A DNA stretch of 64,000 bases from Arctopsyche grandis (Eukaryota > Arthropoda > Insecta > Trichoptera > Hydropsychidae): assembly GCF_051622035.1 (NCBI RefSeq), contig NC_135355.1, forward strand, positions 2,976,001 to 3,040,000, given 5' to 3'. The position numbers and the translations under genes are program-made. Shown in pieces: positions 583 through 60,136 of the stretch; position 1 is the first letter of the stretch; every line of letters begins with the position of its first letter. Under the pieces are notes generated by a model, which did not search any database, was not told the origin of the DNA, and saw nothing but the letters and a program-made list of their open reading frames with translations.

Positions 583-762
583 CACCACCACCTGTTTGTC
601 CCCCCAATGAAGTGTTCACCGTGTGCAAAAATCACGCCTGTCAAAAGACTTGTACGATAGAGCCAGGAGCAAATTGTGTCAGACGTTGCACTAAAGGTTG
701 CATTTGTGCAACTGGCTACATTAGGAATTACGATGGCGTTTGTGTTCTTCCGACCGCATGCA
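583..762 (+). CDS. TIL-A exon A1, one TIL domain
   Basis: The exon follows TTTTAG and ends at TGC A before GTACGT. It encodes a proline-rich lead-in (PPP) and a ten-cysteine TIL domain with CPPNEVF at the first cysteine. The C5-C6 loop, where Ascaris-type inhibitors carry the reactive bond, is C-VRR-C, one of the few basic loops in the locus. This suggests, but does not prove, trypsin-like targets. Confidence 0.9.
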
Positions 763-1026
763 GTACGTTAAGTTTCACCAACTCTCTATGTTCTTCGGAT
801 ATAAAATATATAATTTTGTAATTTTATGAAAACTTCTTTTGCAGTGTGTCCAAGTAACGAAAGATATGGCAGTTGCGGAAAGCTGGCGTGCGAAGGCACA
901 TGTGCAAATCCAGATCCTGGGGTCAACAGTAATTGTGACACAACCGGAATATGTGTTGGAAAATGTTTCTGTGTTCCTGGATTTGTTCGAGAAAATGGAG
1001 TTTGTCAAAATAAGAATAGATGTTAA
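583..1026 (+). CDS. TIL-A: last two exons of a TIL-domain gene (partial)
   Basis: This is the 3' end of a secreted multi-TIL-domain gene whose earlier exons lie left of the window. It has two phase-compatible TIL exons (583-762 and 845-1026) separated by an 82-bp intron, and ends in TAA at 1024-1026. Each exon encodes one complete ten-cysteine domain. By eye the two domains differ from the last two of TIL-B (36687-37122) at about 5 of 60 and 7 of 59 positions, so TIL-A and TIL-B are tandem paralogues sharing this C-terminal pair. No AATAAA is visible after the stop. The role as protease inhibitor or structural protein is inferred from the domain only. Confidence 0.85.
845..1026 (+). CDS. TIL-A exon A2, terminal TIL domain
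   Basis: The acceptor is TTTTGCAG and the stop TAA follows the tenth cysteine directly, so there is no C-terminal tail. All ten cysteines are present and the C5-C6 loop is C-DTTGI-C. It is a close copy of exon B41. Confidence 0.9.
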
Positions 1027-1093
1027 ATATTCTAAATATATGAAATATTGTACATAAAAATACATATGAATCCGTTTATGTATACGTATTAGT

Positions 1094-1275
1094 ATATATA
1101 TATATATATATATATATATATATATATATATATATATATATATATATATATATATATATATATATATATATATATATATATATATATATATATATATACA
1201 TATATATATATATATATATATATATATATATATATATATATATATATATATATATATATATATATATATATATAT
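1094..1275. repeat. (TA)n microsatellite
   Basis: It is about 180 bases of almost pure TA dinucleotide with one CA interruption near 1199, 70 bases after the TIL-A stop. Confidence 0.95.
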
Positions 1276-1729
1276 GTTTCAGAATGTATTAGATGTTTTT
1301 AACATATGTATGTATATGATCAAAGTTCTTTTCTCAAAAGTGCTTTGATCAATTGGGGAAATACATATATAATATAAGGGTTGAAGTGGGTTGGTTTTGG
1401 CACAACTTAAGCAATTTAACAATTTAATGAAATATGTACTTTTTATATATTATCATATTATTTTTGTACTTAATTAAAAATTACCACAAAAATACAATTT
1501 GTTTTATTTTCCATTTTAATATAAATACATATATAAAATACCGGTCTCCGATCTCCTCTTGTTCCTGTTGTATCCTGCTCGCGCAAATTAAGTGAGTATG
1601 TACGTGAGTACATATGTACCGTTTACCATGCACCCTTTTTTTTTTGATCTTTCAACTTAAGATCTTTCGATTTCCGATCTTTGCGTTTTCAGACGTTTCA
1701 CATTCGGGCCCGTGAGGTAGACCCATAAA

Positions 1730-57330: not shown

Positions 57331-58480
57331 GAATTTGAGGGATATAAGATGTATAAATAACAAAAATCCATAACGACACCCACATACCGGCTATGAGAGC
57401 ATTGTCGATACAAGTTTGAGCGCTAATGTAGGGAAACTTATGTACATAAGACAAAAGTTCTATTTCTGATTGTTAGATTTTGTTCAAAATATTTTTATCA
57501 CTATATATCATCAAAAATATTATTACGTAGGAACATGAAAGAGGGTATCCATTGTCTAAGTGCATTCGTTGGTGAACAATAGAGTCCCCGGATTAGGCTA
57601 ACGGGATTCAATAAGATAAAAGTTCTACTTTCGATTGTAGGATTTTGTTCAAAATTTTTTTATTACTTAATATCACTATAAATATTATAAGCATAAAATA
57701 TATAAACAAAATCGCTAGTATATAAAAAATACAAATATGAATTTTCAGCTCGATGATTCAGTGGTGTGGAAAAATTCGTGTGATCACATTTTAATCTTTT
57801 TTAAGAGTAAAAAATCCTACTTCCTGTTTATTAAATTTAATGATTTTTTTATGTTTATCAAATTGATTTTCTCGTGAAGAGCACACATGTTTAAAAATCG
57901 AAAAAAAAATAGTGAAAGAAAAATCTAACAAGAGTAAATTGCCACTTTCGGTTGACGGGTGGTCACCAAATTTTATTTATAACTTCGATAAACCAAATAT
58001 TTTCTGAGAAAAACATAAAAGCCTCGATTTTGTTGAGAGTAAAAGTACTATGTACTTCCAGTTCAGGTAAAAATATTAAGTTATAAAATTTATAATTTCT
58101 ATTATATATAAAAAATAAAAATCGGATGTGACCAACCCATGACTTTATCTATGTATTTGAGGAACATAAGAAAGTTAAAAAACAACAAAAAAAATTCGGG
58201 TGTGACCAACCCATGACTTTATCTATGTATTTGAGGAATATAAGAAAGTTATAACACAAAATTTGATATTAAACCGTACAGACAGATTATGAAATACTCA
58301 TAACTATGACAGCTATACAAATTGAGCGCAAATGTATAGAAATTTGCACAACACAAAAATTCTATTTTCGGTTGTCGGATTTTGTTCACATATTTTTTAT
58401 TACTTAAAATCACTATCAGTAATTATATTCATAAAATATCAAGAAAATAAAAACAATTTAAAAGGTCAAAAAAAAAGTAT
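57331..58480 (-). repeat. CCGGAAGT-family repeats, nested or tandem
   Basis: The terminus GTGACCAACCCATGACTTTA occurs twice 77 bp apart (58128 and 58202), and TTTCGGTTGTCGGATTTTGT-like blocks recur. At least two inverted copies lie against each other up to exon E1. Confidence 0.55.
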
Positions 58481-58520
58481 TTTATATAAAATATGATTAT
58501 AATCTATTTATGTATAACAG

Positions 58521-58697
58521 ATTGCAAAAAGGACAACGAAATTTTCAGACAAGGTGGTCCTGCGTGTGTTAACACTTGCGAAGAACCAGATCGTCTGACA
58601 GGAATGGGATGTTCGGCTGTTTGCGTTCCAGGTTGCTTTTGCAAACCAACTTTCTTGAGGAATAATAACGGCGATTGTATACCACAAAGCAAATGCT
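58521..58697 (+). CDS. TIL-E exon E1, TIL domain lacking C2
   Basis: The acceptor is GTATAACAG and the donor GTAAAT. It matches D3, but FDVCGPSC is FRQGGPAC here, so C2 is lost and C6 is left unpaired. The loop is C-SAV-C. The frame is open 28 bases upstream to an ATG that gives no convincing signal peptide. Confidence 0.85.
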
Positions 58698-60136
58698 GTA
58701 AATTATTTACAATTTTCACTTTCGTACGTTTATCTATTATAGAATTCTCAATTAAAAATGTGACCTATTTTTTTTAGATAAATGCACAGGACCCAACGAA
58801 GTTTTCTCTAATTGTGTGTCACCTTGCGGTGAAAGATGTTCCAATTTGGGACAAGACTTAGTATGCAATTTCATCGCATGTAATGCAGGCTGCGATTGTA
58901 AACCAGGATTCTTCAGAAATTCCAAGAACGAGTGTGTTCCACCTGCAAAATGCGGTTCGTAGAAGTTACTGCAGCCATTAATCATGTAATCAACGGAAAT
59001 CTGGCAGCATCTTCATAGTTTTTATATCATTTCAGATTGTAATCCAAATGAAGAGTTAGATATGTGTTATAACAAATGTCCTCCACGCACTTGTGATGCA
59101 ATCGGAAAGATGTTCAAGTGTGCAGCACCCGATCCAAACAACTGTAAACCAGCTTGCAAATGTAAATTCAACTATCGCAGAAATTCAGATGGTGTCTGTA
59201 TACCTATTCAGAAGTGTCGTAAGTACAAATACAATAAATATTCCACATACTTACCAGTAGGTACATGCATATTATATTGTATTTTTTTTTCAATTACTCA
59301 GCTCCTCTAAAATGTACTGGTGAAAATGAAATTTACAATTCTTGTCCACCATCATGTTTGGATGAAAGATGTAGGAGTTTGTATGATCCACTAATGTGCA
59401 CTCTGGAAGTTAGAGAATGTGCGCCTGCATGTGTGTGCAAGGATGACTATCTTCGCAACGATGAAGGAAAGTGCATTCCCAAAACTCAATGCCGTAAGTT
59501 ACATATGTACATACATATGTATATTGAAACTCATTGTAAGAAGACCAATTAGAAATTTCACTTTTTAATCTTAAATCTTAAATTTTAGGAGAGTATTGCT
59601 CTGATCCAAACTCTAAATTCAACAAGTGCGGAAATGCTTGTCCTATAACTTGCAGAAACAGAAACACCGATAGAAAATGTACCAAAAATTGTATCCCCGG
59701 TGGTGGTTGCGTATGCATAGAAGGATTCATTTTAAACGATAATGGATTGTGTATTCCACCAGAAAAATGTCGTTAGTATTTGTTTTTTCACTACAAAATA
59801 GAACTTGTAAGTGTTTTTCGGTAATATCAGTAGTCTATAGAGGCCTGCCTTTATGCTTCCCGATTATAATCACCTAATTAAAATTTAAAGTTTACCAGCT
59901 CTAGAATTATTTTCAAGCATAATTTTCTTATTTATTTTGTTTTAGCCCCAGATTGTGGAGCTAACGAGATCTACGACAAATTGGCTCCTGTTGTGCAACA
60001 AACGTGTGCAACTTACAAAAATCAGCACGATTGCAAGGATTACAAGCCGGGGTGCGTCTGCATTAAAGGATACGTGCGTGAGTGCACCAACGGAAAGTGT
60101 ATTAAGGAATGTGACTGTAAAAAACGAAGAAAATGA
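58521..60136 (+). CDS. TIL-E: partial TIL-D duplicate without signal exon
   Basis: Six TIL exons correspond in order to D3, D5, D6, D7, D8 and D9, sum to 1103 nt and stay in frame to TGA at 60134-60136, followed by AATAAA. Counterparts of D1, D2 and D4 are missing, and repeats fill the 3.3 kb upstream. Either it is a 5'-truncated duplicate decaying slowly, or its exons are spliced to TIL-D transcripts. One cysteine loss (E1) and an atypical donor (E2) point to relaxed constraint, but there is no internal stop. Confidence 0.75.
58778..58954 (+). CDS. TIL-E exon E2, TIL domain (GERC subfamily)
   Basis: The acceptor is TTTTTTTAG. Ten cysteines are present, with core CVSPCGERC and loop C-NFIA-C. 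The donor is GTTCGT, weak, and read-through would meet TAG at 58959-58961. Confidence 0.88.
59036..59218 (+). CDS. TIL-E exon E3, TIL domain (NEELD subfamily)
   Basis: The acceptor is TCATTTCAG and the donor GTAAGT. Ten cysteines are present, starting CNPNEELDMC, with a seven-residue C5-C6 loop. Confidence 0.92.
59302..59493 (+). CDS. TIL-E exon E4, TIL domain (TGENE subfamily)
   Basis: The acceptor is TTACTCAG and the donor GTAAGT. Ten cysteines are present, starting CTGENEIYNSC, with loop C-TLEVRE-C. It is very close to D7 and C8. Confidence 0.92.
59589..59771 (+). CDS. TIL-E exon E5, TIL domain with GTTAGT donor
   Basis: The acceptor is AAATTTTAG. Ten cysteines are present, starting YCSDPNSKF, with GGCVC and loop C-TKN-C. 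It shares the GTTAGT stop-donor with D8, but the following AATAAA is mutated to AATAGA. Confidence 0.9.
59946..60136 (+). CDS. TIL-E exon E6, reduced terminal TIL domain with basic tail
   Basis: The acceptor is TTTTGTTTTAG. It lacks C2, C3 and C6, and ends CDCKKRRK then TGA. It is the paralogue of D9 and C11. Confidence 0.92.

Follow-up and report, generated by a model that had tools for sequence, protein, structure and literature searches.

A tandem superlocus of TIL-domain exons, probably of modular zonadhesin-like silk genes, in the caddisfly Arctopsyche grandis

The stretch of DNA analysed here, the window, comprises 64,000 nucleotides of the Arctopsyche grandis genome (Hydropsychidae; assembly GCF_051622035.1, contig NC_135355.1) and corresponds to C1:2976001-3040000, where C1 is the contig of the window and C8 another contig of the same genome. 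It contains 66 TIL domains between positions 597 and 60118. Every domain falls within a single open stretch, and all (66 of 66 kept matches) are on the plus strand, as are the gene units and exons of the window described below. Our favoured reading, at a probability of about 85%, is a superlocus of modular zonadhesin-like (Zon) silk genes of which the window covers one part. The kind of gene is known, but its scale here is unusual. The superlocus spans about 326 kb, with 299 TIL matches in the 290 kb examined within C1:2735001-3078000 (apart from C1:2935001-2966000 and C1:3040001-3062000). Among them, 194 lie upstream, 26 directly before the window, 66 within it and 13 in a further gene downstream, gene G; the last 6 kb contain none. 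Matches continue for about 231 kb before the window and 32 kb beyond it, at cut-offs of E<1e-5 inside it and E<=1e-3 outside.

The window is divided into five units, A to E, and their plan is that of the modular Zons of Plectrocnemia conspersa (Zon1-3, Zon6 and Zon8; PMC9432349). The published accounts cited here were available to us in part, and comparisons with them extend to those parts. Zon proteins are regular components of the silk of moths and caddisflies. The P. conspersa genes have numerous short repeating exons, each encoding one cysteine-rich module, and this arrangement is also found here. Their products carry a secretion signal peptide, which is likewise predicted for units B, C and D. 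Cysteine is the commonest residue in both, accounting for 14.7-17.4% of the P. conspersa Zons (PMC9432349) and 14.7-15.8% of the proteins predicted here (C 14.7%, D 15.5%, E 15.8% and B 15.3-15.5%). The most direct link is a 22-residue peptide of P. conspersa Zon2, measured in silk, which is identical to exon 57 of unit D at 17 of 22 positions. In the window and the sequences L001-L032, matches to this peptide of at least 45% are confined to exons 57, 63, 48 and 12 and one exon of gene G. The genes differ in size: P. conspersa Zon3, which was detected in silk, transcriptome and genome, has 35 exons and 196 kDa (PMC9432349), whereas 41 exons are predicted in unit B and an upstream run reaches 61 TIL matches.

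Relatives in two moths are smaller or have fewer exons. Yponomeuta cagnagella ZNL3 has 20 exons and 1253 aa, with no large array mentioned in the part of the report available to us, and the larger genes are described there as apparently arising by duplication from shorter forms (PMC9684489). In the micropterigid moth Neomicropteryx cornuta, zonadhesin-like B and C have 19 and 20 exons and 1053 and 1181 aa; they resemble the genes here in their Til/EGF2 domains and in a cysteine content of 14.4-14.6% (PMC11906653). ZNL3 and the two N. cornuta genes average one exon per 53-63 aa. Monolithic Zons, such as P. conspersa Zon5A-D, are usually intronless (PMC9432349); they belong to the same protein class but, in contrast to the modular genes here, have no introns between domains. 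The A. grandis genome also contains intronless TIL arrays on C8 (L031, C8:25102001-25110000), which resemble the monolithic type and whose domain order is, by eye, that of the modular genes.

The original prediction, made from the letters of the window alone, was of 66 single-exon TIL domains on one strand, and the same count was returned by a hidden Markov model trained on the window's own matches. In a Pfam scan of eight selected pieces and the 66 domains, the TIL family (PF01826) matched 62 of 66 domains at E<=0.01, and each of four further families matched one or two. Counted on the alignment, the ten conserved cysteines are complete in 54 of 66 domains. In the TIL domain C2 pairs with C6, and in five of the six domains without C2, C6 is gone as well, a joint loss that is expected if the two are paired. 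The exons concerned are 45, 46, 52, 60 and 66; exon 61 lacks C2 alone. A supposed loss of C10 in exon 19 was ruled out, the cysteine being present four residues further on. Exon 35, which represents the long array type, encodes 71 aa, has an insert between C4 and C5 and retains all ten cysteines. It had no Pfam match at 1e-3, and its predicted model, of modest confidence (predicted local distance difference test score 69), had no PDB match at E 0.001. The five nearest PDB entries were nevertheless all inhibitors of the TIL type, although their E-values (0.03 to 0.095) are weak. First among them was AMCI (PDB 1CCV), a TIL serine protease inhibitor that is also the best single-domain chain by profile; it has the TIL domain in common with these genes but is a single domain, as opposed to a string of exons.

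The exon borders are strongly patterned. First-choice acceptors were in phase 1 in 62 of 66 exons, and after inspection of exons 3, 13 and 14 a phase-1 acceptor site is present in 65 of 66, the exception being exon 21, which has no usable acceptor. Exons 5, 13 and 14 have a higher-scoring acceptor in another phase beside the phase-1 site. Apart from the terminal TIL exons (2, 42, 52, 60 and 66), 60 of 61 exons have a phase-1 GT donor, the exception being exon 32. These numbers support the symmetric phase 1-1 exons of the original prediction. Its claim that nearly all borders fall one base after the C10 codon also holds: 53 of these 60 donors do so exactly, and the others are those of exons 5-8 (seven bases past the codon), exon 27 (four), exon 51 (ten) and exon 28, whose donor sits within the codon itself. 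Rival donors score higher in exons 47, 56 and 61, that of exon 61 being in another phase. The length of internal exons is divisible by 3 in 59 of 60 cases, a count that is a consistency check and no independent test, the splice borders having been chosen by phase. The pattern continues upstream in the superlocus, where acceptors are in phase 1 in 169 of 176 scored exons and 162 of 194 TIL matches have the donor one base past C10; 12 of the 194 are partial matches.

Unit B (6688..37119) is the largest gene of the window. It has the 40 TIL exons that had been claimed for it (exons 3-42), with a stop directly past C10 of exon 42 and AATAAA at 37199. Upstream lies a predicted first exon (6526..6613) with a signal peptide, MSCYLKYSVLLMTFWYANGVLRNPLRCNS, a phase-1 donor, TATATAA at -90 and a cysteine that possibly stands for C1 of exon 3, giving 41 predicted exons in total. 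A scan for signal peptides with an unbiased donor matrix, run on the gaps between units and then repeated inside B, gave no sign of an internal start. It found five candidates, four of which overlap TIL exons, against a background of six on the minus strand at the same thresholds. The sole candidate clear of TIL exons is at 14779, and a start once considered at 15305-15371, between exons 13 and 14, is absent from the candidates of this corrected scan. The reading of B as one long gene is thereby supported. Local exon families occur at exons 6-9 (9416..11854; protein 67-84% identical), exons 22-25 and exons 30-39 (33349..36253), the last being a tandem array of long TIL exons in an exon+intron unit of about 299 bp, in which exons 35-37 have 97% protein identity.

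The continuity of B depends on one unusual junction. Exon 28 (32575..32778) is followed past its apparent C10 position by a TAG, with an AATAAA nearby, and B might have been split here. Comparison with homologues speaks against such a split. In gene G (L030) and in two other clusters (L007 and L008), the next exon opens directly behind an AG with GT followed by a Cys codon; the exon before it ends in a Cys codon whose GT is a possible donor (GTTAGT in G, GTGAGT in L008 and, weaker, GTACGG in L007). The C8 copy runs through this place as ...NQCCKDPN, without an intron. On this comparison the donor of exon 28 is most simply placed inside the C10 codon (CAA T|GTTAGT), so that the TAG would be intronic. 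Exon 29 (33000..33173), which starts with GT, would then complete the codon as T|GT over the junction, and B would continue to exon 42. For annotators, a donor within a cysteine codon mimics a stop and could wrongly split a gene.

Two exons of B are damaged. Exon 21 (26249..26432) has lost C7 and its acceptor. It stands next to a retrotransposon in an intron of B (21152..26238, plus strand), which we take to be a Jockey-like element without long terminal repeats; a frame with endonuclease and reverse transcriptase (22533-25253) is open for 906 aa. A direct repeat of 96.5% identity (25087-25514 and 25814-26238) derives from the element's 3' part, and this repeat stops 11 bp ahead of the C1 codon of exon 21. 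A piece of another reverse transcriptase lies on the minus strand at 27259-27912, with RVT_1 slightly below its curated cut-off. Exon 32 (33950..34167) has both splice sites, but contains an in-frame TGA and measures 218 nt, versus 225 nt for exons 31 and 33. With exon 32 in and exon 21 out, the predicted product of B is 1852 aa (203 kDa); with both out it is 2483 aa (268 kDa). Exon skipping may be relevant for these two exons.

These lesions raise the alternative that B is no longer a working gene, but a Zon2-like head (exons 3-29) fused to a now-decaying array tail (exons 30-42). The tail does resemble the 3' ends of two other array genes, which fits a fusion. Yet 38 of the 40 TIL exons are open with usable splice sites, and the ratio of nonsynonymous to synonymous substitution (dN/dS) is 0.19 both for the B tail against an upstream relative (seven exons) and for the B head against gene G (four exons). 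We regard decay as an unlikely but real contender to a B that still works as a modular Zon.

The other units vary in completeness. Unit A (583..1023) consists of two TIL exons (583-762; 845-1023, then stop). A further 26 TIL exons lie directly upstream of the window (C1:2966439-2975228), so that unit A is the 3' end of a long array gene. Unit C (41956..47274) has 10 TIL exons (43-52) and a predicted product of 641 aa and 70.2 kDa; its predicted first exon (40814..40922), with the signal peptide MYRLAFLLLAAQLVKATVVTNDHHCAYP..., was located by similarity to paralogues, and a TATA motif was looked for before it and not found. Unit D (52347..55168) has 8 TIL exons (53-60) and a predicted product of 522 aa and 57.6 kDa; its predicted first exon (52116..52227), with the signal peptide MAKVIYCLVIFISATWLVEATVAPVDPHCAYP..., was located in the same way, and TATAAATA lies at -56 of it. 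Unit E (58521..60133) has 6 TIL exons (61-66) and is probably a 5'-truncated copy. The prediction of five gene units on one strand thus stands as to the strand; of the units, A is only the end of a longer gene and E has no first exon that we could find. In the upstream 200 kb, a signal-peptide-like exon lies no more than 2.6 kb before 7 of 8 first-type TIL exons picked by eye. A TATA-like motif precedes 7 of 10 start exons versus 26% of random places in the window, which is weak support for these starts. Between and within the units, 49354-50753 and 45350-45652 belong to a repeat family of about 300 bp, in both orientations and 85-92% alike. Scans of the window with Rfam (gathering threshold) and for tRNA gave no match.

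Genes of the cluster were duplicated with their exon order largely kept. Colinear reciprocal best exon pairs number 8 of 8 between C and G and 9 of 10 between B and G, a result reached in none of 5000 shuffles in either case. All six pairs are colinear in each of C-D, C-E and D-E (7, 7 and 5 of 5000 shuffles), as are 5 of 5 in E-G (43 of 5000) and 6 of 7 in D-G (34 of 5000). Within genes, exons were amplified in tandem together with their introns. The clearest case lies upstream at C1:2912539-2920011, an array of 26 units with a core of 19 whose exons are identical; 14 units of this core are identical over 299 bp. Ungapped intron distances, which are inflated by indels, were used only for this core and exons 35-37. 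In the literature searched, as far as it was available to us, we found no account of Zon genes with such series of identical exon+intron units.

One exon appears to have a different origin. A block containing exon 16 (17061-17588) is 89% identical over 543 bp to C1:3063986-3064524, and a dispersed repeat flanks it with a direct copy on either side (16492-16968 and 17618-18187). Exon 16 itself is 96% identical to the first TIL exon of gene G; for the exons next to it, identity to the best match is 46% and 63%. Because of this G-like identity and the bracketing repeat copies, exon 16 is apparently a single exon inserted between repeats, and it is the only one that looks so. Pieces of the same repeat also occur near 31394, 39412, 48832, 49001, 55575 and 57984. 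The view that the locus evolves by exon shuffling is therefore borne out for exon duplication, but not for shuffling as the main history, which is one of colinear copies and tandem amplification.

The exons are mostly under constraint, in other words purifying selection. Nei-Gojobori dN/dS values, summed over hand-chosen exon pairs and averaging both lineages of each pair, are 0.33 for D-E, 0.26 for C-D, 0.19 for C-E and 0.27 for D-G. Within local families they are 0.10 for exons 6-9 and 0.15 for exons 35-37, and for single pairs 0.16 for 21-48 (where the synonymous distance is saturated), 0.23 for 12-48 and 0.12 for 63-48. Higher values were obtained for E-G (0.49) and for A against upstream (0.45, on only five changes). 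Selection on unit E may be relaxed.

The upstream 26-unit array belongs to a plus-strand run of 61 TIL matches (C1:2881588-2923308), which opens with a first-type exon at 2881588 and closes with an exon carrying a stop at 2923132. Sixty of the 61 have GT one base past C10 and the last has TAA; no signal-peptide exon was found for the run in the scan. It could be one very long gene, or could partly be a question of assembly. Among the upstream genes, partial TIL matches at C1:2765503-2768093 and 2787150-2792816 resemble pseudogene exons. A profile search of the genome (475.7 Mb in 189 contigs) gave 603 TIL candidates, of which the best 150 were scored, and all of these exceed the Pfam cut-off. 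Among these best 150 there are matches in C1:2935001-2966000 and none in C1:3040001-3062000, nor any from about 3036 to about 3064 kb of C1. L-fibroin has one match in the genome, at 49.5 bits.

We tentatively suggest, as an idea we hold somewhat short of even odds, that the superlocus behaves as an exon-level minisatellite, in which whole units of exon plus intron (299, 272 and 252 bp) would expand and contract by recombination, so that the length of the silk protein, which ranges between about 8 and about 60 TIL domains, would vary between paralogues and probably between individuals with the frame kept, and exons bracketed by repeats would move between genes.

Several observations weigh against identifying the window with working modular Zons. 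Four of the 66 domains are missed by Pfam TIL at E 0.01. Peptides of P. conspersa Zon3, Zon8 and ZonP match at best at 11 of 23, 6 of 10 and 7 of 14 positions, none of them convincingly. The scan of the gaps between units found no signal-peptide exon for unit E, and B, with the stop in exon 32 and an exon 21 lacking an acceptor, may be truncated or decaying. Colinearity of B with its neighbours is weak: 5 of 7 pairs with C (485 of 5000 shuffles), 4 of 6 with D (1424 of 5000) and 4 of 4 with E (246 of 5000), the first two not being significant. Alternatively, the genes might have nothing to do with silk and encode protease inhibitors that serve defence or digestion, whether in the gut, the haemolymph or venom. 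TIL peptides are known to inhibit proteases and also occur in lacewing venom (PMC12758981, in the part available). However, the gene architecture is the same as that of silk Zons, and the closest of the matches we found is to a peptide detected in spun caddisfly silk, which makes a non-silk role very improbable.

The original prediction held further that one gene, above all B, could yield many domain combinations. Under such combinatorial exon choice, B and its neighbours would be spliced into many isoforms differing by whole TIL exons, an inhibitor repertoire. Symmetry is possible for nearly all internal exons, so that subsets of them keep the frame, and a full-length product of B requires the omission of its two damaged exons. 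Exon symmetry permits combinatorial splicing but does not show it. Given that each P. conspersa Zon is listed with one exon number (PMC9432349), that alternative splicing is reported to be relatively rare in the silk genes of Limnephilus lunatus, where one gene has two alternative first exons (PMC11092239), both as far as these sources were available, and that most exons here have well-scoring splice sites (in itself weak evidence), this outcome appears highly unlikely.

We therefore return to modular Zon silk genes. A gene begins with a predicted signal-peptide exon, continues as a string of nearly all phase 1-1 TIL exons and ends in a stop-bearing TIL exon. With one main exon set per gene, each would probably produce a single secreted rod built of TIL domains, rich in cysteine as the commonest residue and stored in silk, where such rods may cross-link and serve as inhibitors of microbial proteases. 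Symmetric exons could be gained and lost without harm to the frame; unequal crossing-over would add or drop them, gene length would drift and damaged exons would be lost cheaply. If the arrays are polymorphic, wild populations would offer a way to relate the length of silk proteins to the properties of the silk. The analysis ties a striking exon array, at the strength given above, to a known class of silk genes, and illustrates how symmetric exons let genes grow.

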